Positions 7,334-33,372 of a stretch of DNA of 37,269 nucleotides are shown here, in pieces (the stretch's first letter is position 1; each line of letters begins with the position of its first letter). The notes beneath the pieces were generated by a model. That model searched no databases, was not told where the DNA came from, and saw only the letters and a list, made by a program, of their open reading frames with translations. A program made the translations under genes and the position numbers. The stretch is from the NCBI GenBank assembly GCA_023663285.1, contig JAMPHT010000033.1:1-37269 (forward strand), read 5' to 3'. The stretch comes from Bacillota bacterium. Lineage in GTDB: Bacteria > Bacillota > Clostridia > Lachnospirales > Lachnospiraceae.

Positions 7334-7395
7334 CCCGCGGACAAAATATGCCCTTCAGACACATAAGCCAAGTCAGCGAATGCCGCCAGGGTCAA
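7334..7395 (-). repeat. Dispersed TTGGCT-core repeat, copy D1
   Basis: Read on the minus strand this stretch runs TTGACCCTGGCGGCATTCG, then TGACTTGGCTTATGTGTC, then a CCGCGGG end. The same blocks in the same order occur at 33267-33372 on the plus strand, with an insert between the first and second block. It lies 12 bp downstream of the nrdG stop codon. Confidence 0.7.
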
Positions 7396-7964: not shown

Positions 7965-8030
7965 ACCATATCTTATTCCTTCCAATTATTCTTCCATGCA
8001 AAATCTTCCGTGAAACTCCCCGCCCAGAAA

Positions 8031-8440
8031 CTGATTTCGGCTGGCACTTTCCACAGAGTCTGACAACTCCCAAAAAACGCTCCTTCCACGGGAAAAATCC
8101 GCTCTACCGGTCTTTCGGAGACTGATTTCGGCTGACGCCTTTCACAGAGTCTGACGACTCCGGGAAGAACGCCCCTTCCACGGAAAGAATCCGCTCTGCC
8201 GGTCCTTCGGAGACTGATTTCGGCTGACGCCTTTCACAGAATCTGACGACTCCGGGAAGAACACCCCTTCCACGAAAAGAATCCGCTCTGCCGGTCCTTC
8301 GGAGACTGATTTCGGCTGAAGCCTTTCATAGAGTCTGCCAACTCCGGGAAGAACGCCCCCCTCCACGGAAAGAATCCGCTCTGCCGGTCCTTCGGAGACT
8401 GATTTCGGCTGACACTTTCCACGGAGTCTAACGACTCCGG
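8031..8440 (-). repeat. Tandem repeat array, ~92-bp unit, about 4.5 copies
   Basis: Units begin with CTGATTTCGGCTG (plus strand) at 8031, 8122, 8214, 8306 and 8399, giving periods of 91, 92, 92 and 93 bp. Each full unit contains a GAGTC-n4-GACTC hairpin, GGGAAGAAC, CCGCTCTGCCGGTCCTTCGGAGA and the CTGATTTCGG block. The period is not a multiple of three, so a coding role is unlikely, although short frames do run through it. The outermost units differ most and the inner ones least, as expected from unequal crossing-over. The array fills most of the 588-bp gap between nrdD and nrdG; 7965-8030 shows nothing recognisable. Confidence 0.92.
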
Positions 8441-8552
8441 GAAGAACGCCTCTAAAGAGGCGTTGTTCAGTGTGAGATTTAGAATTTCTCCGCGAAACAG
8501 CCTATGCTGTGAGCGAAAATTGCCGAAGGCAATTAGAAATTCTTCTCACACT
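8421..8552 (-). repeat. Composite palindromic 3'-end element, copy E1 (after nrdD)
   Basis: Three hairpins follow one another. Outer stem: 8469-8489 with 8535-8552, AGTGTGAGA-type arms, enclosing small hairpins such as ATTGCCgaAGGCAAT. Middle stem: AACGCCTCT / AGAGGCGTT (8445-8464). Third: GGAGTC / GACTCC (8423-8438). On the minus strand the element starts at the base after the nrdD stop codon and runs straight into the 92-bp tandem array, which reuses the third hairpin. Related copies lie at 14372-14448 and 17683-17808. Confidence 0.8.
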
Positions 8553-10742
8553 TTACATGGACTTCCTCTCCGCGATCTCCGCCATCTTTGCATCATTCAG
8601 CCTGGTATCCCCATGCACACGGGAATAGGACAGGTAGCCGTTCATACGGTCGATCTTTGTCAGATTCCGGCTGCCGCACTTGGGACACACATCCATCTCC
8701 AGCTCCTGGTGGCCGCAGTCGTCACAATATGCCAGGGACAGGTTCACTCCCTCATAGAATCCCATATCCATAGCCCGGTGGATCAGAGTCTTGATGGCAT
8801 CTATATTATAATCGATAGGATATTTCACATACTGTATCTTGCCGCCGTTGCAGAGATTCCAGAAGCGGTCCTCCTTGTCCTGCTTTTCGATGGGCGTGAT
8901 ATCCTCGGACACATGGCAGTGGAAGCTGTTGCTCACATACTCCCTGTCGGACACCCCTTCCACAATGCCGTACTTTTTCCTGAACTGCTTTACCTGCACG
9001 CCGCAGAGATTCTCCGCAGGGGTCCCGTATATGGCATAGAGGTTCCCGTCCTCCTCCTTGAATTCGTTTACCTTTGCATTGATGTACTCCATGACCTCCA
9101 GCGCGAACTCGCCGTCCTCCACCAGAGACTTTCCGTTGTAAAGCTCCTGCAGTTCATTCAGAGCCGTGATACCGAAGCTGGCGGTAGCAGACTTAAGCAA
9201 AGGCTTGATCTTGTCATGGAGTCCCAGATGCCCTCCAAGGAAGCCGCCCTCGCAGTATGCCAGAGGATTGGTGGAGGCCCGCATCTCCCCCAGATAAGCA
9301 TAGGTTCTGATATGCAGCTGGCGGATCAGGTTCAGATAGTAATCCAGCACCTCATAAAAGTCTCTGCTTTCCTTCCGCGCCTTTGCCAGGATCATGGGCA
9401 AATGCAGGGACACCGCGCCGATATTGAAACGCCCTACAAATACAGGCACATCTTTATCATCCGCCGGATGCATACCGCCTCTCTCATACCAGGGAGACAG
9501 GAACGCCCGGCAGCCCATGGGCGAAATGATCTTTCCGTACTGCTTGTATATGCCTGCCACATAGCCTTTTCCGGTCAGGCTCAGCCAGTCGGGGTACATG
9601 GTCTTGGCGGAACACTTTACCCCCGCTTCAAACACATCCTCCAGGGGCTTTCCCGGCCCGTGAAGATTCTCGTCATATAAAAATACGATCTTAGGAAAAA
9701 GAACGGGCTTCTTACAGTCCTTCTTGCCCTGTCCCCGCCTTCTCACATTCAGCATGGTGATGGTAGCCAGCTTTGCGAATCTTCCGGTGCCCGTCCCCGC
9801 CGTAACGGTGATAAAGGGATAGTCTCCCCGGCTGCTTCCTACGGTGTTGAACTTGTACTCCCAGCCCTGAAAGCCCTGCTCAAACTCCCGCACCACATCC
9901 GCGTAAGCCTCCGCCTCCGCCGTGTCCCTGTCGATCCCCAGACGGATGTATTTGTCCACGTATTTATCATAGGACTTTTCCGCATAGGGCTCCAGGATCA
10001 GATCCACGCTGGGTACGGTGAATCCGCCGTACTGCTGGCTGGCGGCGCTTAAGACGATATCTCCGATCACGTCAAAGGCCACATCCAGAGACTTGGGCTC
10101 GTTGTACCACACATTTCCCATCTCGAAGCCGCCCTCCAGCACGTGCTGCACATCGAAAAGGCAGCAGTTCATGGTATCCCTTCTGGCGGACATATCATGT
10201 ACATAAATATAACCGTCCCGGCAGGCCTGGATCTCCTCCGTGGTCAGGAAAAACTTCTGGTACAGCTCCTTGTTCAGCTGATTAAAGATCAGGCTCCGTT
10301 TGGTAGCCACCAGGGCGGAATCCGTATTGGCATTCTCCTTGTCCCCGATGTACATGATGGACTGGCTCTTCTTGTACACATCATCCAGCATCCGCACAAA
10401 ATCCTGCTTATAGTTGCGGTAATCCCTGTAGCTTTTTGCCACCACAGGCTTTACCTGCTCCAAGGCGCTCTCCACGATATTATGCATGACGGGAATGGGG
10501 ATCTCATCCACATCCATCTCGTCCACCTTTTCGACCACATACCGGCAGATATTGCTTTCCTCCTCGCCGGTGAATTTCGTCAGCGCCCGGTAGGCGCTCT
10601 TTGCCACCGCGTTGATGACCTTCTGCACGTTAAAGATCTCCCGGCTGCCATCCTTTTTGATCACATACACATCTCTCTTGGGCTTAAACGCCTCGCCATA
10701 ATCAATATCTCCGGTAGCCGCCTGGTCAAAATTACTGCTCAT
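8553..10742 (-). CDS. nrdD: Anaerobic (class III) ribonucleoside-triphosphate reductase
   Basis: The enzyme reduces NTPs to dNTPs without oxygen, using a glycyl radical and, in this class, usually formate. An ATP-cone regulatory domain lies at about residues 20-110 (VYVIKKDGSREIFNVQKVI). The barrel domain includes NTVGSSRGDYPFITVT, PKIVFLYDENLH and GNLYAIYGTPAENLCG. Near the end the structural zinc ligands are seen in YCDDCGHQE and DVCPKCGSRN, followed by the glycyl radical site RMNGYLSYS (Gly about 702 of 729). The ATG at 10742 was chosen because the upstream open frame holds non-coding repeats and regulator sites; AGGGATGGAAAG precedes it. nrdG lies downstream. Transcription starts about 280 bases upstream, next to candidate NrdR boxes. 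Confidence 0.95.
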   Translation of the reverse strand: MSSNFDQAATGDIDYGEAFKPKRDVYVIKKDGSREIFNVQKVINAVAKSAYRALTKFTGEEESNICRYVVEKVDEMDVDEIPIPVMHNIVESALEQVKPVVAKSYRDYRNYKQDFVRMLDDVYKKSQSIMYIGDKENANTDSALVATKRSLIFNQLNKELYQKFFLTTEEIQACRDGYIYVHDMSARRDTMNCCLFDVQHVLEGGFEMGNVWYNEPKSLDVAFDVIGDIVLSAASQQYGGFTVPSVDLILEPYAEKSYDKYVDKYIRLGIDRDTAEAEAYADVVREFEQGFQGWEYKFNTVGSSRGDYPFITVTAGTGTGRFAKLATITMLNVRRRGQGKKDCKKPVLFPKIVFLYDENLHGPGKPLEDVFEAGVKCSAKTMYPDWLSLTGKGYVAGIYKQYGKIISPMGCRAFLSPWYERGGMHPADDKDVPVFVGRFNIGAVSLHLPMILAKARKESRDFYEVLDYYLNLIRQLHIRTYAYLGEMRASTNPLAYCEGGFLGGHLGLHDKIKPLLKSATASFGITALNELQELYNGKSLVEDGEFALEVMEYINAKVNEFKEEDGNLYAIYGTPAENLCGVQVKQFRKKYGIVEGVSDREYVSNSFHCHVSEDITPIEKQDKEDRFWNLCNGGKIQYVKYPIDYNIDAIKTLIHRAMDMGFYEGVNLSLAYCDDCGHQELEMDVCPKCGSRNLTKIDRMNGYLSYSRVHGDTRLNDAKMAEIAERKSM

Positions 10743-11022
10743 TCTTTCCATCCCTTCTGATTTTATTTCTTCAAAACACCGCGAAATTTTCCTGTCCGAC
10801 ACACGCTTCCGGACCATCTGCGCTGCAGAACATCGGGCCGTTTTGTTCCGCATAACCGGAACCCCTGCACTATATGGCATCGGGTCCCCCATCCTACGGG
10901 CCCTCCTGCACCGCAGAACATCGGGCCGTCTTTCGGCCGCCTGCTTCGCAGATTCCCCCTCAAGGGCCGCATACAAAATATTGTTTTTCACATTTCGCCC
11001 GACCCCTATATATTGTGTCGTC
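10743..11022 (-). other. Long 5' leader of nrdD with short direct repeats and hairpins
   Basis: Between promoter and start codon lie about 280 bases. A near-identical segment occurs twice (10817-10840 and 10908-10930, plus-strand core GCAGAACATCGGGCCGT). Each copy folds into a small CTGC-n3-GCAG hairpin. Other hairpins are GGCCG/CGGCC near 10924-10938 and GTTCCG/CGGAAC near 10846-10863. The frame stays open through the leader, but codon content and the repeats argue against translation. I did not recognise a known riboswitch class. Confidence 0.5.
10971..11018 (-). promoter_or_regulatory. Candidate pair of NrdR boxes
   Basis: Two 16-bp sites, 11003-11018 (minus strand ACACAATATATAGGGG) and 10971-10986 (minus strand AAACAATATTTTGTAT), have centres 32 bp apart, close to three helical turns. 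NrdR, the ATP-cone repressor of ribonucleotide reductase genes, binds paired 16-bp boxes with a similar AT-rich dyad at such spacings. The sites lie just downstream of the nrdD promoter. Each matches the consensus imperfectly. Confidence 0.45.
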
Positions 11023-11029
11023 ATCTAAC

Positions 11030-11058
11030 AGTATAAGGAAGAATTTATCTCTTGTCAA
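11030..11058 (-). promoter_or_regulatory. Sigma-A promoter of nrdD
   Basis: On the minus strand TTGACA (11053-11058) and TATACT (11030-11035) are separated by exactly 17 bp, one of the best promoters in the window. Confidence 0.8.
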
Positions 11059-11082
11059 GGAACATGATAAAAAAATGTGTAC

Positions 11083-11121
11083 AAAAAAGGCACCTGAATT
11101 TTAGAAATAAATTCAGATACC
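11083..11121 (-). terminator. Terminator of the WYL regulator gene
   Basis: A 13-bp stem with two G-T pairs joins 11089-11101 and 11109-11121. On the minus strand it is followed by TTTTTTG. It starts four bases after the regulator's stop codon. Confidence 0.85.
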
Positions 11122-11125
11122 TGAT

Positions 11126-12166
11126 TCAATCCCCCGCTTTTTCCGGATTCCGCACCGGCAATTCCGGCAGCTCCGCCGTCAGCTGCATGGTGGTCACAAT
11201 GTCGGTAAGCCAGCTCCTGTACTGCTCCTTCACCGAAGAGGGACCAAGCACCACCGCTTCTCTGCCAATGCCTGCCAGCCATCCGAAGAACTGGCCGCTG
11301 ACCGCTACCCTTACCCGAATGCGGAAAATTCTATCTGTCATGGGGCGGATATCCGCATCCCGGCCAAAGCGATCCAGCACCACTCCCACCAGTCTGTTGG
11401 GGAACTGCAGCGTCACCGTCTCCAGATCGCCGCTGAACATCCCGAAGGTCTGGTTGGTATAGACCGCCGGATCTATCTCCGAGAACTGCTCCATTCCTTC
11501 TCTGGGTTCCTTCAGCACCTTCACCTGGCCCATTTTGTCCACCCGGTAGTGCTTCATGATGCCGTCCGCTCCGTCATATGCTGCCAGATAGTAATTTTCT
11601 TCCTTCCATATCAACGCCCAGGGACTGGCCTGCTTTCTGCTCCCCACCCGCGGCGCAAGTTCTTTCTTCATATTCCAGTCCAGATACTGGAACTCGATCT
11701 GCCGGTTCCCCTGTATCGCCTTATGGATCGTATCAATGCTATAGTAGATACTCTCATTCTCTGTCTTGATACGGCCTGCCACATAGACCTGCCTCTGCAG
11801 CTTTCCGGCGTCATGCTTTCCCGCCATATGCTCCAGCTTCTTGATCAGGCTTCTGGACTTCCTGGTGGTAATGAATCGGGAGGATTGCACTGCGTCTACC
11901 AGCAGCTTTAACTCAGCCAGTTCAAACTCTCTGCTTGCCAGATAGTAGCCGCCTCCAAGCCTGTTGTGCACCTGGATGATGTCATAGCCGAAATCGCAAA
12001 GCTTCTCTATGTCATCATAAATACTCTTCCGCTCCGAATGAATGTCCTGAGCTTCCAGATACGCAATGATTTCCGCCGTACTCACCGGATGGTTCTCATC
12101 TGTATTTTCCGTCAGAAGCTTTATGATATATAAAAGCTTCAGCTTTTGCCCCGCCGACTTTGCCAT
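11126..12166 (-). CDS. WYL-domain transcriptional regulator
   Basis: This 346-residue protein has an N-terminal helix-turn-helix (about 8-75, VSTAEIIAYLEAQDI and RKSIYDDIEKLCDFGYDI) followed by GGGYYLA, the usual wing. The central WYL domain contains PWALIWKEENYYLAAYD and the RVDKMGQVKVL strand, and a WCX-like C-terminal part ends the protein. WYL proteins respond to ligands, often nucleic acids or nucleotides, and control stress or defence genes. The ATG at 12166 follows GGGGG with a nine-base gap. It is the second gene of an operon behind a 55-residue membrane protein and has its own terminator. The regulon is not deducible here; autoregulation is possible. Confidence 0.9.
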   Translation of the reverse strand: MAKSAGQKLKLLYIIKLLTENTDENHPVSTAEIIAYLEAQDIHSERKSIYDDIEKLCDFGYDIIQVHNRLGGGYYLASREFELAELKLLVDAVQSSRFITTRKSRSLIKKLEHMAGKHDAGKLQRQVYVAGRIKTENESIYYSIDTIHKAIQGNRQIEFQYLDWNMKKELAPRVGSRKQASPWALIWKEENYYLAAYDGADGIMKHYRVDKMGQVKVLKEPREGMEQFSEIDPAVYTNQTFGMFSGDLETVTLQFPNRLVGVVLDRFGRDADIRPMTDRIFRIRVRVAVSGQFFGWLAGIGREAVVLGPSSVKEQYRSWLTDIVTTMQLTAELPELPVRNPEKAGD

Positions 12167-12184
12167 ATCAAAAAACCCCCGGAA

Positions 12185-12352
12185 TTATGCCTCCTGCTTT
12201 TCCTCCGAAACCTCAAGAGCCGCATTCTTCGCGTTCTTTTTCTTGGCCATGGTGATACCGATAAATATTGCCACTGCGCATACCGCTGCAATGATCAGCA
12301 TCAGCAGTCCGTAAGACAAAAACATTCTACCAAATTCAATCAGTTTTCCCAT
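12185..12352 (-). CDS. Small single-pass membrane protein, function unknown
   Basis: This 55-residue protein starts at the ATG at 12352, nine bases after GAGG, and stops at 12185, 18 bases before the WYL regulator. One hydrophobic segment spans about residues 11-34 (SYGLLMLIIAAVCAVAIFIG), followed by a basic stretch, MAKKKNAKNA, and an acidic tail ending EEKQEA. The basic stretch after the helix suggests the C-terminus is in the cytoplasm. It has its own strong promoter, so it is very likely expressed. No family was recognised. Its coupling to the WYL regulator suggests a shared stress or signalling role, but that is inference. Confidence 0.72.
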   Translation of the reverse strand: MGKLIEFGRMFLSYGLLMLIIAAVCAVAIFIGITMAKKKNAKNAALEVSEEKQEA

Positions 12353-12388
12353 AATTTAAGACCTCGCTTCTGTTTCTGATATAATTAC

Positions 12389-12417
12389 AGTATAACAAGC
12401 CTGTCCGTTTCCGTCAA
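12389..12417 (-). promoter_or_regulatory. Sigma-A promoter of the small membrane protein / WYL operon
   Basis: On the minus strand TTGACG (12412-12417) and TATACT (12389-12394) are separated by 17 bp. The start codon lies about 37 bp downstream. Confidence 0.75.
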
Positions 12418-12504
12418 GTGCGGCGCCGCGTTTATTTCCGGTCTCGTGATCGTCTCCGTCTCGTACTATTCGTTACTTATTTTCAAGCTAAGGCTTTCGA
12501 TTTT

Positions 12505-12561
12505 GATTCCCGCGAACAATGAGCCAAGTGTCATGCCTGCATCGGGGTTGATGTGTCAAAC
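12505..12561 (-). repeat. Degenerate TTGGCT-core repeat, copy D2
   Basis: On the minus strand this stretch reads TTTGACAC, then GCATGACACTTGGCTCATTG, then TTCGCGGGAATC. It resembles D1 and D3 in block order (TTGAC, then a GCAT block, then ACTTGGCT, then CGCGGG) but is more diverged. It begins at the stop codon of the MutS-like gene. Confidence 0.4.
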
Positions 12562-14244
12562 AACTCCCCAGCTTCCTGTGGCAAGGAACTGCTCCGCCTG
12601 CCGGAAGGCGCAGTCCGTGATCTTACTGTCATAGCCCATCAGCTCCAACAGCCTGATAGCGTTCCTGCCGGATGCCTTTCCTGCCTGCAGACGATAATTA
12701 AAGCTGATATCGCCGTCCCGCACATCCTCCTCAAAGTGATAATTGTCAAAATCCTCCTGCAAAAGCTCCGTCAGTTCAATATCGTGGGTGGCTGCAAAGC
12801 AGAATATCCCCCCCAGAGACTTTAATATCTGAGTGGACGCCGCGATCCGCTCCACCGTATTGGTCCCCCGCAGCACCTCATCCACCACGCACAAAACAGG
12901 CCCATCCCCCGACGCCGCCGCATCCAGGATCCGCTTGAGGGCCTTGATCTCTACGATATAATAGCTCTCTCCCCCCGCCAGGTCATCCCGCAGAGCCATG
13001 GAGGTGTAGACCCGGAAAAAGGGCGCCCGGTAGCCCTCTGCCGCACAGGTATTTATGGATTGGGCCAATATGGCGTTGACTGCCACCGTCTTTAAAAATG
13101 TGGACTTGCCGGAAGCATTGGAGCCGGTGAGCAGCACCCCCCGCCCGGCAGAAATGCTGTTTTTCACAGGCTGTTCCAGCATGGGATGATACCCTTCCCG
13201 CAGGGTCACTCCACAGTCCTCTCCAAATTCCGGTCGGCACCAGCCGTTTTTCAGGGACTCCCTGAATATCCACACGGAAACGGCCGCTTCCAGATACCCA
13301 AGGGTACTGATAAGGCTGTCCACATCCTCCACATACTGCCGCAGCACACGGAGCATCTGGTTAAACTTGATCAGATCCACATGAAAAACCATGCGGATAT
13401 AGTCCATAAAGATCCCGATAATATCCCCGGAAGCATTTCCGCCCCTGGCGGAGCTGGAATTCATGACCCAGAAGCTGTTCCGTCTCAATGCCTGAAGCCG
13501 TTTCTTATGAAAGCGGATCGCTTCCAACTCCTCCCTGCATCCCGAAAGCCCTGTTTTTTCCAGCTCGTCACAGACCCCCAGCAGGCGTATGACATAGGCA
13601 AAGCTGATGATATAGGGGTCGATCTCGCCCTTCTCCTTAAAGTAGGACGCAATATTGTAACACATCAGCATAATGATCCCGGTGATTCCCAGAGGGAACT
13701 GTATCCAGCACAGAGCGATCAGCGGCAGAAAGAGAAGATCCAGAAACAGATGTTTTCTGCTGCTACGCTCCCCCAGGTAATCCAGGTTATCTATGTAATC
13801 ATAGAGAGAATATTTTCCCGTATGACCCAGCTTGTCCATACAGAACTGAAACCGCACCCGCTCCTTAGGGTTTTCGCCGAAAAAGCTGACCTTCCGCTCA
13901 AAGCGTTCCAGCTCTTCCTTTTTCCGGCTCAAAGTCCGCAGCCTGTAATACAGATACTCCTCCCCGGTGGCGGAAAGGGTATAGTTCATCCGCTTGAAGA
14001 TCTCATCCATCCCAAGATCGTTCCAGGTGATATCGTCGATCTGCCCCTCTTCCTGATGCCGCCTGTAAAAGCTGTCCAGCTTTTCAAAGCGTTCCGCGGC
14101 ATATTTTTTATCTGCAAGCTTCAAATAATCCTTCTGCAGCCTGGCAATAAAATCTTTTTTTTCTTTTTTGGCGCGGCGGACCTCCAGGGCAAATACCAGG
14201 ATCACAAACGCCCCCAGGGCCGCCGCCAGCAAAACATACTCCAT
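12556..14244 (-). CDS. Membrane-anchored MutS-family ATPase (MutS domain V only)
   Basis: The C-terminal half is a MutS-type ABC ATPase: Walker A TGSNASGKST (373-382), the DDLAGGESYYIVE signature (420-432), Walker B VLCVVDEVLRGTN and FAATHDIELTEL. The N-terminal half is not a mismatch-recognition domain; it has a hydrophobic segment at residues 3-20, charged helices, and a hydrophobic hairpin at about 168-196. At 562 residues it lacks the mismatch-binding and connector domains of MutS1 and the Smr domain of MutS2. Relatives are annotated as DNA mismatch repair protein MutS in Firmicutes, but a repair role is unproven. The ATG at 14244 follows GGAGGTTTGG. It is a monocistronic gene or nearly so. 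Confidence 0.88.
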   Translation of the reverse strand: MEYVLLAAALGAFVILVFALEVRRAKKEKKDFIARLQKDYLKLADKKYAAERFEKLDSFYRRHQEEGQIDDITWNDLGMDEIFKRMNYTLSATGEEYLYYRLRTLSRKKEELERFERKVSFFGENPKERVRFQFCMDKLGHTGKYSLYDYIDNLDYLGERSSRKHLFLDLLFLPLIALCWIQFPLGITGIIMLMCYNIASYFKEKGEIDPYIISFAYVIRLLGVCDELEKTGLSGCREELEAIRFHKKRLQALRRNSFWVMNSSSARGGNASGDIIGIFMDYIRMVFHVDLIKFNQMLRVLRQYVEDVDSLISTLGYLEAAVSVWIFRESLKNGWCRPEFGEDCGVTLREGYHPMLEQPVKNSISAGRGVLLTGSNASGKSTFLKTVAVNAILAQSINTCAAEGYRAPFFRVYTSMALRDDLAGGESYYIVEIKALKRILDAAASGDGPVLCVVDEVLRGTNTVERIAASTQILKSLGGIFCFAATHDIELTELLQEDFDNYHFEEDVRDGDISFNYRLQAGKASGRNAIRLLELMGYDSKITDCAFRQAEQFLATGSWGVV

Positions 14245-14371
14245 CCAAACCTCCACGCCGTCGTAAAAGCAGAACTTATTCTGATTTTGTGCCATTACAC
14301 GGCTTATTGGAATCACAATATGCTTTCAGCAAGTACATGATTCCGAAAAGGGACTGAATTAATGACTTTGG

Positions 14372-14448
14372 GAAGAATCGCGCAGCGATTCTTCGAGGCG
14401 AAACTTAGATTTTCTTAGGCATAAAATGCCTTAGAAAATCTTTTCGCC
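14372..14448 (-). repeat. Composite palindromic 3'-end element, copy E3 (after the NCS2 gene)
   Basis: A long hairpin pairs 14397-14403 with 14442-14448 (GGCGAAA / TTTCGCC) and, inside it, 14407-14422 with 14426-14441 (16 perfect pairs). A second hairpin, GAAGAATCGC / GCGATTCTTC, lies at 14372-14394. On the minus strand the element starts at the base after the permease stop codon. The second hairpin is identical in its arms to that of the copy at 17683-17808. The GGAGTC hairpin of the other copies is not preserved here. Confidence 0.8.
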
Positions 14449-15870
14449 TTAGGCGACCAGGAAAAACTTCACCAGGAAAATCGCCGACAGCACATAGGTC
14501 AGCACGGAGACATCCTTTGCCTTGCCTGTAAACAGCTTGATGACCGTGTAGGAGATCAGGCCGATACCGATGGCGTGTCCGATGGAGCCGGACACCGGCA
14601 TGGCGATCAGCATCAGCGCCGTGGGCACAGACTGGCAGATGTCGCTGAAATCAATATTTTTCAGCCCCGTGATCATCAGCACACCCACATAGATCAGAGC
14701 GGCCGAAGTAGCTGCGGGGGGAATCACTGCCGCCACGGGAGCCAGGAAAATGCAGGCCAGGAACACAATGCCCGTAGTCAGAGCCGTAAGTCCCGTCCGT
14801 CCGCCAGCTTCCACACCGGAGGCAGACTCCACAAAAGTGGTCACGGTGGAGGTGCCGGTTGCGGAGCCTACCACAGTACCTACCGCATCCGCCAGCAGAG
14901 CTTCCTTCATCTGGGGCATCTTTCCATCTTTGTCCAGCATACCTGCACGGCTTGCGGTGCCCACCAGGGTCCCGATGGTATCAAACATATCAATGATACA
15001 AAAGGTAACGATCAGCGTGATCACCGTGAACCAGCCGATCTGGGCAAAACCGCTGAAATTGAACTTAAACAGGGTTGTCTCCGCCATATCCTTAAAGGGC
15101 GGCAGGAAAGACGCGCCTGCCAGACCTGCAAAGGGATTGGTATGCAGGAATATAGCCTGTCCGGCCCAGTTGATAACGCTGGCCGCCAGCATTCCTAAGA
15201 TCACTGCAGCCTTGACGCCCTTCTGGGAAAGGATAATGATAACAAACAGGCCGATAAACATGGTCACAACAGTCAGAACCATTGCCGCATAGCTGTCTCC
15301 CATACTTGTCTTTGCAATGCTGGGAGTCAGCGCCCCGAAGAAATCCCGCATAACATAAAAGGAACTGGCGGGGCCTACACCGGCGTTGGAGCCCAGACCG
15401 ATATTCAACAGCATCATGCCGATAGCAGGCGCAATCCCCAGACGGACTCCCAGGGGAATGGCATCCACGATCTTCTCCCGCACATTCAGCACAGAGAGCA
15501 CCAGAAATACCAGCCCTTCCACCAGGATGATACAGAGAGCAGCCTGGAAGGAATCCAGATATGACATACCTGTCAGTCCCGCTATATTTGCCACCACCAC
15601 TGCAAAAAAGCTGTTCAGCCCCATGCCCGGCGCCATGGCAAAGGGTTTGTTTGCCACAAAGGCCATGACGAACATACCCACCGCTGAAGCGATACAGGTT
15701 GCCAGGAAAACGCCGTTCCACAGGCTTGTCCCCCGCTCCCCAAAGCCAACCAACAGATTGGGATTCAGGGCGATGATGTACGCCATCGTCATAAAGGTGG
15801 TCAGCCCGGCAATGATCTCCGTCCTGACTGTGGTTTTGTTCTCCTTCAGTTTAAAAACCTTTTCCAACAT
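14449..15870 (-). CDS. NCS2 (AzgA-type) purine permease
   Basis: A 473-residue membrane protein with about 12-14 hydrophobic segments. The N-terminal TEIIAGLTTFMTMAYIIALNP and NKPFAMAPGMGLNSFFA stretches are hallmarks of the AzgA/PbuG branch of the nucleobase:cation symporters, as are DMFDTIGTLVGTASRAGML and GTSTVTTFVESASGVEAGGRTG. Members take up adenine, guanine or hypoxanthine. The start at 15870 follows GAGGAGGAGATCGAG. It is the last gene of a salvage operon (pnp, cdd, amidohydrolase, permease), which supports a purine base as substrate. Element E3 lies directly after its stop codon. Confidence 0.93.
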   Translation of the reverse strand: MLEKVFKLKENKTTVRTEIIAGLTTFMTMAYIIALNPNLLVGFGERGTSLWNGVFLATCIASAVGMFVMAFVANKPFAMAPGMGLNSFFAVVVANIAGLTGMSYLDSFQAALCIILVEGLVFLVLSVLNVREKIVDAIPLGVRLGIAPAIGMMLLNIGLGSNAGVGPASSFYVMRDFFGALTPSIAKTSMGDSYAAMVLTVVTMFIGLFVIIILSQKGVKAAVILGMLAASVINWAGQAIFLHTNPFAGLAGASFLPPFKDMAETTLFKFNFSGFAQIGWFTVITLIVTFCIIDMFDTIGTLVGTASRAGMLDKDGKMPQMKEALLADAVGTVVGSATGTSTVTTFVESASGVEAGGRTGLTALTTGIVFLACIFLAPVAAVIPPAATSAALIYVGVLMITGLKNIDFSDICQSVPTALMLIAMPVSGSIGHAIGIGLISYTVIKLFTGKAKDVSVLTYVLSAIFLVKFFLVA

Positions 15871-15893
15871 TACTCGATCTCCTCCTCTTTCCT

Positions 15894-17195
15894 TCAGGTA
15901 TTTATAATGCGCTTAACGATCCTGTCGCATTTTGCATATATGTCCTCCACGCTCTCGCCAATGTTAAACTCGCCGTTCCGATACAGGATCCTGCCGTTTA
16001 TCATGGTCATGAGCACATTGGACTTACTGCCGCTGTACACCAGGTTCTTAGGAATATTGTGAATAGGCTGCATATTGGGCTGATGCAGATCCAGCAGGAT
16101 CAGATCCGCCAGCTTGCCCTTGGCCAGCACATCCGCCTTTGGCAGCCGCATTGCCTTTGCGCCGTTTACGGTAGCCATCCTCAGCACCCGCATGGCGTCC
16201 AGGCTGGCGGCGTCCTCCTCCCGCAGCTTGCTCAAGCCGGTCACCAGGAACATTTCCCGGAACATATCCAGACAATTGTTGCTGGCAGGCCCGTCCGTGC
16301 CGATAGCCACAGGGATCTTCCTCTTTTCAAACTCCGCCACCGGCGCGATCCCGCTGGCAAGCTTCATATTGGAAGCCGGATTGGTGACTGCGAACAGCCT
16401 GCGTCTGCGGAACAGCTCCATATCCTCCTCCGTCATGTGGACACAGTGATACCCGCCGCCCCCGTATTCAAATATCCCCATATTATCCAGAAACATGGCC
16501 GGGGTCACGCCATATCTCTCCTTACACTCCTCCACTTCCTTTTTCGTCTCCGCCAGATGGGTATAGACAGGAGCATGATATCTGTGGGCAAGCTGTGCCA
16601 CCCGGTAGATCAGCTCCTTGGAGCAGGTGTATTCCGCATGAAAGCCCAGTTGATAACTGATCAGGGGATCAGCCTTATTCCATTTCAGATACTCCTCCTC
16701 CATCTGCTCCAGGGAGGAACTGAAATCATTCAGCCCGCTGGTGAGCACACAGCGCATCCCCATGTCGATACAAGCCTCTGCAGACGCTCCGGGACTTAAA
16801 TACATCTCAAAGATGGAAGTGATGCCAGAGGTGAGATACTCCAGAACAGCCAGCCTGGTCAGATGATAAATGTCCTCCGCCGTCAGCTTTGCCTCCATGG
16901 GAAATATCTTCTCATTCAGCCACTGTTTAAGGGGCACATCATCCGCATAGGACCGCAGAAAGGTCATTGCGGAATGGGTGTGGGCATTCTTAAATCCCGG
17001 CATCAGCAGATTCTCCTTACAGTCCACCTCTACATCCCAGGTGATTCTGGGCACATTGCTGTCCCATTCGCTTTGCAGCTCCTCCCGGTCCGCCACATAG
17101 GCGATCTTGTCATTTTTTACCCAGACCTCACCCCTGAAAACCGGCCGGTTCTTCTCCATAGTCAAGATCCTTGCATTGTAAAGCCTGATGTTCAC
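15894..17195 (-). CDS. Amidohydrolase, probable MTA/SAH or purine deaminase
   Basis: This 433-residue enzyme belongs to the ATZ/TRZ branch of metal-dependent amidohydrolases. Metal and catalytic residues are in place: NAHTHSAMTFLR, LGFHAEYTCS, VYTHLAETKKE and VAIGTDGPASNNCLDMFRE. The last motif is typical of 5'-methylthioadenosine / S-adenosylhomocysteine deaminases, which make 5'-methylthioinosine or S-inosylhomocysteine and ammonia; guanine or adenosine deamination is an alternative. The GTG start overlaps the cdd stop codon in a GTGA, so translation is coupled. It sits between a cytidine deaminase and a purine permease in the salvage operon, consistent with deamination of purine nucleosides or bases. 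Confidence 0.88.
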   Translation of the reverse strand: MNIRLYNARILTMEKNRPVFRGEVWVKNDKIAYVADREELQSEWDSNVPRITWDVEVDCKENLLMPGFKNAHTHSAMTFLRSYADDVPLKQWLNEKIFPMEAKLTAEDIYHLTRLAVLEYLTSGITSIFEMYLSPGASAEACIDMGMRCVLTSGLNDFSSSLEQMEEEYLKWNKADPLISYQLGFHAEYTCSKELIYRVAQLAHRYHAPVYTHLAETKKEVEECKERYGVTPAMFLDNMGIFEYGGGGYHCVHMTEEDMELFRRRRLFAVTNPASNMKLASGIAPVAEFEKRKIPVAIGTDGPASNNCLDMFREMFLVTGLSKLREEDAASLDAMRVLRMATVNGAKAMRLPKADVLAKGKLADLILLDLHQPNMQPIHNIPKNLVYSGSKSNVLMTMINGRILYRNGEFNIGESVEDIYAKCDRIVKRIINT

Positions 17196-17620
17196 CTGAT
17201 CGATTCACCTCCAAATCCAAAGGGTTGGAGTTCCTCCAGCCGGTACTCCTGAAAATCCTCCGCGCTCTTTGCCACGATCACTTTAAAATCACTCCCGCAG
17301 AACTCCCGCATCACCTGCCTGCAGACGCCGCAGGGATAGGCGTAATCCACCGGCTCTTCCCCTTCCATGCCGCCTGCAATGGCAATAGCGGCAAAGCCTC
17401 TTTCCCCCTGGCTCACCGCCCGGAAAAAGGCTGTCCGCTCCGCGCAGTTTGTTGCGCCATAGGAGGCGTTTTCAATATTGCAGCCGGAAAAGATCTCTCC
17501 CCCCTTCGTCAAAAGCGCCGCTCCCACAGCGTAGTGGGAATATGGCACATAGGCGTTTTTTCTGGCTTCCAGCGCCGCCTGCACCAGCGCCGCCGCATCC
17601 GTCTTACTTTGTTTTTCCAT
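17192..17620 (-). CDS. cdd: Cytidine deaminase
   Basis: The enzyme converts cytidine and deoxycytidine to uridine and deoxyuridine. The homotetrameric-type signature is complete: AYVPYSHYAVGAAL, SGCNIENASYG, then NCAERTAFF with zinc ligand C59 and catalytic E61, and PCGVCRQVMREF with C97 and C100. Length, 142 residues, is usual. The ATG at 17620 follows AGGAGAAGAGG. It is followed by the amidohydrolase with a 4-bp overlap and preceded by pnp, from which it is separated only by the tail of element E2. The operon order joins pyrimidine and purine salvage. Confidence 0.95.
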   Translation of the reverse strand: MEKQSKTDAAALVQAALEARKNAYVPYSHYAVGAALLTKGGEIFSGCNIENASYGATNCAERTAFFRAVSQGERGFAAIAIAGGMEGEEPVDYAYPCGVCRQVMREFCGSDFKVIVAKSAEDFQEYRLEELQPFGFGGESIR

Positions 17621-17682
17621 CCTCTTCTCCTGTTTCATAAACCTGTAACCAATGAACCGCCGCAGGCACAAACCAATCCCAC

Positions 17683-17808
17683 GGAGTCTGCGACTCCGAG
17701 AAGAATCGCTTTCCTTGCGATTCTTCAGTGTGAGATTAGAATTCCTTTGTATGCGGATTTATCCGCATTATGCCCTCTGGCATGAGCATTAGAAATTCTT
17801 CTCACGCT
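17683..17808 (-). repeat. Composite palindromic element, copy E2 (inside the 3' end of pnp)
   Basis: Hairpins in order on the plus strand: GGAGTC/GACTCC (17683-17697), GAAGAATCGC/GCGATTCTTC (17700-17726), and an outer stem pairing AGTGTGAGATTAGAATT (from 17727) with AGAAATTCTTCTCAC (17791-17805). The outer stem encloses ATGCGGAT/ATCCGCAT (17751-17768). Unlike E1 and E3, which start after the stop codon, this copy has entered the reading frame: the pnp stop TGA (17725-17727) lies inside it. Confidence 0.82.
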
Positions 17809-18621
17809 TCGCACGGACTCCGTCACCAGCTTCTTGAAATTCGGCGCCGCCGCATCCGCTGCCGCCTGCACCTCCTCATGGCTCAAAGGTGTGGCCGTCA
17901 TCCCCGCCGCAAGATTGCAGATACAGGAAATACCGCATATTTTCATACCCATATGATTTGCCGCAATGGCTTCCACCACGGTGCTCATCCCCACTGCATC
18001 GCAGCCTAAGGTCCGCAGCAGGCGGATCTCCGCAGGAGACTCGAAAGATGGCCCCGTCAGCTGAGCGTATACCCCCTCCTGGAGGAAAATGCCGTTCTCT
18101 CTGGCTGTACTGCGGATGACCTGCTGCAACTCCTCGTCATACACCCGGCTCATGTCGGGAAATCTGACGCCCAGCTCGTCTATATTCGGCCCGATCAGCG
18201 GGTTGGGCGCGAAGACAGATATCTGATCCCTGATCAGCATCAGATCCCCTGCATGGAAGGAGGTGTTCACCCCGCCTGCCGCATTGGTGAGAAACAGTAT
18301 CCTCGCTCCCATCAGCTTCATCAGCCTTGTGGGAAGCACCACATCGCTGACAGGATACCCTTCATAATAATGCACTCTGCCCTTCATGCAGACCACAGGC
18401 GTTTCGTCCACATATCCGAAAATAAATCTGCCAGCGTGTCCCGGCACCGTGGATACAGGAAATCCGTCTATTTCACCGTAGGGCAGTTCATACTCCACCC
18501 GTATGCTTTCCGCGTAGTCTCCCAGACCTGACCCCAGGACAATGGCGGCCTCCGGCACAAAATCCGTCTTTTTCCGCACACAGTCGTAACATCTCATAAG
18601 CTTATCATACACTTCACCCAT
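17725..18621 (-). CDS. Purine nucleoside phosphorylase with repeat-encoded C-terminal tail
   Basis: The enzyme splits inosine, guanosine and their deoxy forms with phosphate into base and (deoxy)ribose-1-phosphate. The trimeric PNP family marks are present: IVLGSGLGDYAE (phosphate loop), TVPGHAGRF, RVHYYEGYP, LTNAAGGVN, YAQLTGPSFESPAEIR and AVGMSTVVEAIAANHMG. The usual protein ends soon after FKKLVTES; here about 26 more residues follow (VRRISNAHARG... to GILISH), encoded wholly by palindromic element E2. The ATG at 18621 follows GAGGGGGTGC. First gene of the salvage operon. The core is intact, so activity is expected; the effect of the tail is unknown. Confidence 0.94.
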   Translation of the reverse strand: MGEVYDKLMRCYDCVRKKTDFVPEAAIVLGSGLGDYAESIRVEYELPYGEIDGFPVSTVPGHAGRFIFGYVDETPVVCMKGRVHYYEGYPVSDVVLPTRLMKLMGARILFLTNAAGGVNTSFHAGDLMLIRDQISVFAPNPLIGPNIDELGVRFPDMSRVYDEELQQVIRSTARENGIFLQEGVYAQLTGPSFESPAEIRLLRTLGCDAVGMSTVVEAIAANHMGMKICGISCICNLAAGMTATPLSHEEVQAAADAAAPNFKKLVTESVRSVRRISNAHARGHNADKSAYKGILISH

Positions 18622-33266: not shown

Positions 33267-33372
33267 TTGACCCTCGCGGCATTCGTCAATCTGTCCAAGC
33301 CAACCACAAGTTGACTTGGCTTATGTGTCTGAAAGACAAAAATATGTCAAAAAGACATATTGGGCTCGCGGG
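33267..33372 (+). repeat. Dispersed TTGGCT-core repeat, copy D3
   Basis: TTGACCCTCGCGGCATTCG and TTGACTTGGCTTATGTGTC match D1 (7334-7395) almost base for base, then both end at CGCGGG. D3 has an insert between the blocks that can pair AAGCCAA with TTGGCTT, and an extra hairpin AATATGTC-aaaaa-GACATATT (33341-33361). With the adjacent palindrome it fills most of the 370-bp gap 33138-33507, where no gene is convincing. Confidence 0.7.

Follow-up and report, generated by a model that had tools for sequence, protein, structure and literature searches.

Three composite palindromic structures mark the ends of metabolic genes in the stretch of DNA analyzed here (contig JAMPHT010000033.1 of assembly GCA_023663285.1, 37,269 nucleotides (nt), hereafter the window), which comes from a Bacillota bacterium of the Lachnospiraceae. 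They belong to a family that probably consists of short, non-autonomous, TA-targeting composite palindromic elements of the Lachnospiraceae, comparable to miniature inverted-repeat transposable elements, that dock at stop codons in the orientation of the gene. Dozens of copies occur in gut bacteria of the Acetatifactor group. They are dispersed, oriented with the upstream gene and mostly docked at its stop, they lie in a TA context in one genome that experienced a burst, their sites are empty in relatives, and they conserve pairing while single hairpins are replaced. The family combines near-constant orientation and stop docking with lineage-specific empty sites and with the swap for a different, equally paired hairpin at the same stop, and it may represent a new kind of gene-end tag.

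A dispersed family with one modular plan

The first-pass annotation of the window had described composite palindromes at the 3' ends of three genes. The three hairpin structures are confirmed there on the minus strand, except that the third copy lies inside the open reading frame (ORF) of a purine-nucleoside phosphorylase and supplies its stop codon. Two copies had been placed right after a stop; they are indeed on or next to stops, with a single A intervening at nrdD; at the second site, the outer stem begins with the last A of the upstream gene's stop codon. Folding returns z-scores of -9.3, -8.0 and -7.7 for the three copies, with none of 200 dinucleotide shuffles each being as good, and the two strands fold to a similar extent, as palindromes should. 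Fuller copies of the family exceed the hairpins first listed and run on through GGATTGGTTTGTGCC to GGCATGACTGGAAGTGTGA.

Further copies, which the annotation had named as support for its reading, are found throughout the home genome, a draft assembly of 3.07 Mb in 90 contigs with 86% completeness, the window lying on contig 26. With up to two mismatches, the 18-base arm GTGAGAAGAATTTCTAAT is found at 34 places, and at none when the pattern is reversed. Most of 30 fetched loci follow one modular plan, L016 and L021 being partial. Its 5' part comprises AAGTGTGAGAAGAATTTCTAA, one or two loop hairpins taken from a small stock, and GAAATTCTA; an optional CGGCGC..GCGCC hairpin, CTCACAC and a GAAGAA..TTCTTC hairpin, the loop of which may house a further hairpin, form the middle; the 3' part often contains GGAGTC..GACTCC, followed by GGATTGGTTTGTGCC and GGCATGACTGGAAGTGTGA. 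Alternative outer arms are GGCGAAA, CGGAATGA, GTGTGCAA and ACGTAAAG. The right end alone is present at 42 places with at most three mismatches (one in the control). Among the 30 of these that were fetched, 14 are devoid of the core motif, including a known copy with a variant arm (L220); at 10 of the 13 others, the end of a co-oriented gene falls in the range from 77 nt upstream of the motif to 7 nt inside it. A transposase-like insert, which would denote an autonomous long copy between both ends, was not noticed in the printed stretches, in which no systematic search was made.

A structural descriptor of the element reports 47 matches and a single one on the reversed sequence. Most of the scanned loci had been fetched for the motif, however, some places count twice because two loci contain them, and no fewer than two of the 47 look unrelated. 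In 16 diverse cores, 15 of 25 pairs are changed on both sides and 94.8% of the cells are paired, the latter value being inflated because the core rows were picked by the descriptor, which requires near-complete outer and inner pairing; the loop hairpins, with 6 of the 15 double-changed pairs, are outside this requirement. These cores hold 45 double-changed cells, as compared with 11.3 in shuffles and 1-7 in slid structures, in agreement with the earlier statement that the arms change while pairing is kept. The compensatory pairing behind the proposed selection on structure is present. Selection is one reading of it, and the exact re-copying of palindromes by a mover is another; wobble counts do not separate them (G-T 48 vs A-C 25 in the home genome, 21 vs 15 elsewhere, some columns being misaligned). 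Given this misalignment, wobble asymmetry was dropped as a test of RNA-level selection.

The arm pattern is found in 48 of 101 genomes of the genus (0-35 copies each) and matches of model R1 in 60 of the 101. R1 also reports matches in 16 of 200 genomes of the bacterial family, in 15 of 199 genera, and in 11 of 295 genomes of the order, namely nine of the same bacterial family and two weak ones of another; no match is returned in 24 genomes of other families. Copy counts in these surveys also contain matches to the opposite strand of a palindrome already counted, and the large searches score few candidates per genome. Carriage by viruses was rejected, as viral contigs hold no exact match to a 19-base arm.

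Some arrangements depart from the single copy. L025 and L365 are head-to-tail tandems of two elements of different subfamilies, with the boundary AAGTGTGA, or TTA followed by GTGTGA, in common. At L010, two ORFs flank a copy, one ending at +6 and the other beginning just past the core; they may be one interrupted gene, presumably of a PD-(D/E)XK transposase-like family. In genome G089 (L182-L200), the same core hairpin is located in the middle of a longer element with inverted ends resembling TAG.CG.TTGC.AAAC (consensus of 18 aligned copies), hence a nested form.

Stop codons, TA context and empty sites

Placement was examined for 59 distinct copies of the home genome, 57 from R1 after strand merging and two from the pattern (L015 and L016); at least two listed copies (C29:14760 and C13:6181) and any unlisted ones are outside this set. 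The upstream gene is co-oriented in 56 of the 59, against 45% of 97,910 intergenic position-orientations, and the remaining three copies are antisense. In 42 copies, the upstream stop ends between 13 nt before the hairpin and 20 nt inside it, in line with the clustering at stop codons that the annotation asked for. The offsets are -13 to +8 in 38 copies, +19 in 4 and +41 to +83 in 8, with the stop 60-360 nt upstream in 6. A stop at -13 to +1 is observed in 26 of 59 copies where 3.9% are expected (P = 2e-21, copies being treated as independent). In 24 copies, the element itself contains the stop, at +6 (9), +8 (3), +19 (4) or further in (8). As for the downstream gene, it is co-oriented in 49 of the 53 copies for which one is called (baseline 84%, P = 0.06). 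The 5' end of the element closes two of the three frames within 19 nt, and therefore an insertion a few codons ahead of a stop is survivable; the third frame yields C-terminal tails, as in the purine-nucleoside phosphorylase.

A similar placement is seen in other genera (7 genomes, 32 copies), where the stop ends at -13 to +20 in 21 copies, 17 by the gene caller and 4 by ORF length alone. The remaining 11 comprise one copy at +32, two that look like second tandem copies, three located 58-102 nt downstream of a gene, two antisense and three unclear ones. Genome G471 has undergone a recent burst that left near-identical copies, and 10 of its 14 first copies have an upstream ORF ending at +1 (7) or -2 (3); the other four do not fit the stop rule. 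At L363, one of the three at -2, a slightly longer ORF runs antisense. TA precedes all 16 copies examined in G471 (17 are listed), as compared with a base rate of 5%, and five right ends there terminate in TTA, which suggests a TA duplication at the right end, as does L024 of the home genome. Within the set from other genera, 13 of 32 copies are at TA and 4 more at TAA.

Comparison with relatives covered 23 home-genome sites, from 50 co-oriented copies with a stop at most 15 nt upstream, and the three window sites. Orthologues were sought in the relatives G072 and G036, with five more genomes for the window sites, and 22 sites could be aligned. The L125 site holds one subfamily in the home genome and a different one in G072, inserted at the same base; in G036 it is empty (L155), reading GAATA followed by GATTTTCAC. 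The L024 site is empty in both relatives, G036 exhibiting GGTGGTA followed by GAATGAGG (L165) and the next ATG beginning at most 2 nt from the stop. Another empty site reads GTGAAA followed by TAAATAGG (L179), and at L041 the native GTGAAATAA has turned into GTGAAAACGGAATGA. Sixteen sites have an element-free relative. The native stop there ends no more than 3 nt from the core start at 9 sites and 4-13 nt upstream of it at 4, three of which carry a AAGTGTGAA extension before the core that reaches the stop; at the remaining 3 it ends 6-14 nt further downstream, so that the core begins within the last codons. These offsets leave out L133 and L134 (remnants or poor alignment), and reach up to 23 in distant relatives at the phosphorylase site.

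At 6 of the 22 sites, the relative holds a different, still paired first hairpin, and remnants are held at some others (L043, L133 and L134). Between the nrdD site and its G072 counterpart, the gene is 91% identical, the first hairpin 58% and the next 40 nt 83%; the corresponding values are 94%, 47% and 74% at the second window site, also against G072, and 92%, 72% and 93% at L018. Shuffling gives a baseline identity of 44% on average and 51% at most, as obtained from one pair. In the other three re-occupied sites the next 40 nt are not conserved either (0.50-0.56). The alignments thus point to in-place exchange of one hairpin with its neighbours retained; two sites show this clearly and a third in part. 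Among 36 printed orthologues out of 80 for the second window site, an intact copy at the stop is present only in L281 and L282; L286 is a remnant, L302 has a copy further downstream, and the other automatic matches there look like chance.

Known palindromic families and rival explanations

The annotation knew of no named family with such a plan. Rfam reports no gathering match in the window and none at E<=5 in positions 8000-18000, and no published description was found among titles and abstract openings, most subscription papers being out of reach, which is weak evidence for novelty. As far as tested, the family is a member of no named one, while being like BOX, ERIC and REP. Stop-proximal palindromes are already known: in 36 cases, a BOX copy of streptococci encodes the stop codon of a gene at its very 3' end (PMC3049150), and REPs of E. 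coli lying within 15 nt of a stop are reported to slow terminating ribosomes (PMC12306157, citing Liang 2015). BOX elements are also composite repeats of exchangeable modules with predicted hairpins (PMC3049150); they vary in the number of boxB modules, whereas the Lachnospiraceae family varies the hairpin in each slot and has stop docking and co-orientation as a rule.

ERIC, RUP and Correia/NEMIS are short palindromic elements with TA at their termini (PMC2229807), and NEMIS and ERIC are transcribed together with the genes beside them (PMC1590033). Insertion at TA is shared, cleanly in G471 and more weakly elsewhere. In contrast with these elements, the outer arms vary between copies (GTGTGAGA, GTGTGCAA, CGGAATGA, AGGCGAAA, GCGCGGAA), and no fixed terminal inverted repeats match a resident insertion sequence, the search for which was confined to DDE_3. 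An IS630-type partner was rejected: DDE_3 is present in 13 of 101 genus genomes, including the element-bearing G001 and G043, and absent from the home genome. YPAL/RU-2 of Yersinia, of about 168 bp, has internal inverted repeats and known empty sites and is said to be co-translated with upstream genes; it differs from the present family, with its TA context, by target duplications of 3-26 bp and by having no TA ends (PMC2229807). REP, BIME and REPIN are likewise palindromes, some near stop codons, and form mosaic arrays (PMC12306157, PMC3116915). REPs measure 20-40 bp, with a GTAG or CGTC tag marking one end of the palindrome (PMC3733652), and no link to RAYT was found for the Lachnospiraceae family.

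Rickettsia palindromic elements are in-frame insertions within coding sequence that extend the protein. The third window copy also extends a protein, whereas the Lachnospiraceae elements end the protein and cap gene ends, and the suggested Rickettsia-type resemblance is not supported. Integron attC sites, too, lie after stop codons and preserve their structure despite sequence variation; they were set aside, as the neighbours are ordinary genes syntenic in relatives, with no attC scan made.

The proposed TA-targeting element would insert mostly on a stop codon or no more than about a dozen bases from it, in near-constant orientation to the gene. Its first bases would make or supply stops in two of the three frames, and therefore the upstream protein would end within a few codons, the third frame leading to short tails. 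In the rest of the element, consecutive hairpins would occupy the space up to the next gene, some copies carrying a purine-rich start-site sequence at their distal end. The element would be moved by an enzyme acting in trans, its hairpins may be exchanged by recombination or template switching, and, being co-transcribed, they may be tolerated or kept as compact, nuclease-resistant RNA between genes. Several observations weigh against this proposal. The TA rule is clean only in G471: just 17 of 59 home-genome copies directly follow TA, TAA or TAAA (5.9% expected), and, in contrast to G471 and L024, other sites show a repeat of AAGTGTGA at the right end instead of a TA duplication. Genes were called with a home-made codon-usage model and, at some places, by ORF length alone. 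The 19 fetched copies of G089, which belong to the longer form, lie away from stops, with the nearest called upstream gene ending at least 79 nt away, and argue against a universal rule. As for the mover, the search turned up no mobilising gene: neither Y1_Tnp nor DDE_3, the transposase families searched, follows copy number.

Docking may reflect a filter and not a target, if insertion of a TA-targeting element is indiscriminate and selection removes all copies but those at gene ends. High turnover between species, short operon gaps (median 69 nt), the safety of 3' ends as places for insertion, and BOX elements of pneumococcus that also come to supply stops (PMC3049150) all agree with such passive tolerance, which deserves serious consideration while falling short of being probable. 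Indeed, the native stop is close to the core start at the 16 sites with an element-free relative, a conditional result since the sites were preselected for a stop at most 15 nt upstream; among all 59 copies, the stop is at -13 to +83 in 50, and 6 are 60-360 nt downstream of it. Moreover, tolerance of a palindrome alone does not predict co-orientation in 56 of 59 copies. The hairpins could alternatively serve as a gene-end RNA device that keeps 3' exonucleases off the upstream message or delays ribosomes at termination, as suggested by their sense orientation, transcribed position and compensatory pairing, and by the REP precedent in E. coli. Against such a device, relatives lack an intact copy at most compared sites, both strands fold alike and wobble pairs show no clear strand bias (some columns being misaligned); we regard it as somewhat unlikely.

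The annotation had noted a resemblance to the REP/BIME group; membership in it, with movement by the Y1 HUH transposase RAYT that is typical of REPs, appears very unlikely. Y1_Tnp matches do exist in the element-rich G000, G044, G074 and G095, those of G000 and G044 being mere pieces, and a copy lies about 2.4 kb away in G000 and 3 kb away in G074; the domain was not found in the element-rich G001, G036, G050, G053, G072, G081 and G089, several of these assemblies being incomplete, none of 12 examined Y1 loci has a copy within about 1.5 kb, and Y1_Tnp is present in 36 of 101 genus genomes. Strong hairpins directly after genes recall intrinsic transcription terminators. Yet no T tract follows the hairpins in the three window copies, as the annotation had noted, or in the 30 printed ones, judged by eye with no terminator scan run, and the copies are not enriched at convergent ends (the downstream gene is co-oriented in 49 of 53 copies, baseline 84%), which makes terminators a highly improbable explanation. 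A bolder extension of the TA-targeting proposal is that the insertion machinery itself finds gene ends in the sense direction, the 5' end regenerating the stop, so that the element would spread through operons without breaking genes and its hairpins would be swapped like cassettes at occupied sites. We put it forward tentatively, as an unlikely case; if true, it would be a natural system that tags bacterial gene ends with exchangeable RNA structures. The family lends itself to testing how very small mobile palindromes come to gene ends and persist there, and makes two questions accessible: targeting versus tolerance at these ends, and the action of the hairpins on the upstream message.

Window copies and their surroundings

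Table 1. Parts of the three copies in the window and adjoining coding features.
Feature	Position	Strand	Stems or motif	Basis and remarks
nrdD stop codon	8553..8555	-	TAA	single A separates it from the core hairpin
nrdD 3'-end copy, first hairpin (core)	8470..8551	-	outer GTGTGAGA/TCTCACAC, inner AGAATTTCT/AGAAATTCT; loop holds two hairpins	R1 match 72.2 bits; fold
nrdD site, second hairpin	8445..8464	-	ACGCCTCTTTAGAGGCGT	fold; common to relative G072 despite differing first hairpin
nrdD site, third hairpin	8417..8443	-	includes GGAGTCGTTAGACTCC	fold
Second copy, first hairpin	14396..14449	-	outer AGGCGAAA/TTTCGCCT, inner AGATTTTCT/AGAAAATCT	R1 match 53.1 bits; fold
Second copy, second hairpin	14372..14394	-	GAAGAATCGC..GCGATTCTTC	fold; G072 and G036 have a related hairpin at this site
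Third copy, first hairpin, inside purine-nucleoside phosphorylase ORF	17728..17807	-		R1 match 59.1 bits; fold
Third copy, second hairpin	17700..17726	-	GAAGAATCGC..GCGATTCTTC	fold
Third copy, third hairpin	17682..17698	-	GGAGTCGCAGACTCC	fold
Element-encoded C-terminal codons (about 26) and stop of purine-nucleoside phosphorylase	17725..17807	-	TGA	translation; NCBIfam profile

The gene upstream of the first copy matches NCBIfam NrdD. The product of the gene preceding the second copy (473 amino acids) returns no NCBIfam match at 1e-10, its NCS2 label being that of the annotation; the best named orthologue is from an Acetatifactor muris metagenome-assembled genome (97% identical), and the nearest named orthologues place the genome with Acetatifactor and related Lachnospiraceae. 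The NCBIfam profile of the purine-nucleoside phosphorylase stops at residue 289 out of 315 in total, the stop codon being at 17725-17727, and the first hairpin of the third copy is absent from the G072 orthologue (L080, 86% identical). Annotators should be aware that the C-terminus of this protein in the window is element-encoded.

The copy at nrdD (8421) merges into a tandem array of about 92 bp units at 8027-8452, with unit starts spaced by 91-93. The units carry GGAGT..GACTC and GGATTCTTTCC-like pieces, which look derived from modules of the element. At the end of L024 and L020, and at about 14240-14260 of the window, a purine-rich GGAGGTT lies just ahead of the next start codon, as if the element supplied a ribosome-binding site. 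Elsewhere in the window, positions 7349-7375 and 33312-33338 form a 27-nt inverted pair (93% complementary, GACACATAAGCC..), a similar piece of which is present in the relative locus L174; this is perhaps another dispersed palindrome. Lastly, close to the contig end, positions 65-139 and 1206-1280 are AT-rich direct copies of 75 nt that are 79% identical.

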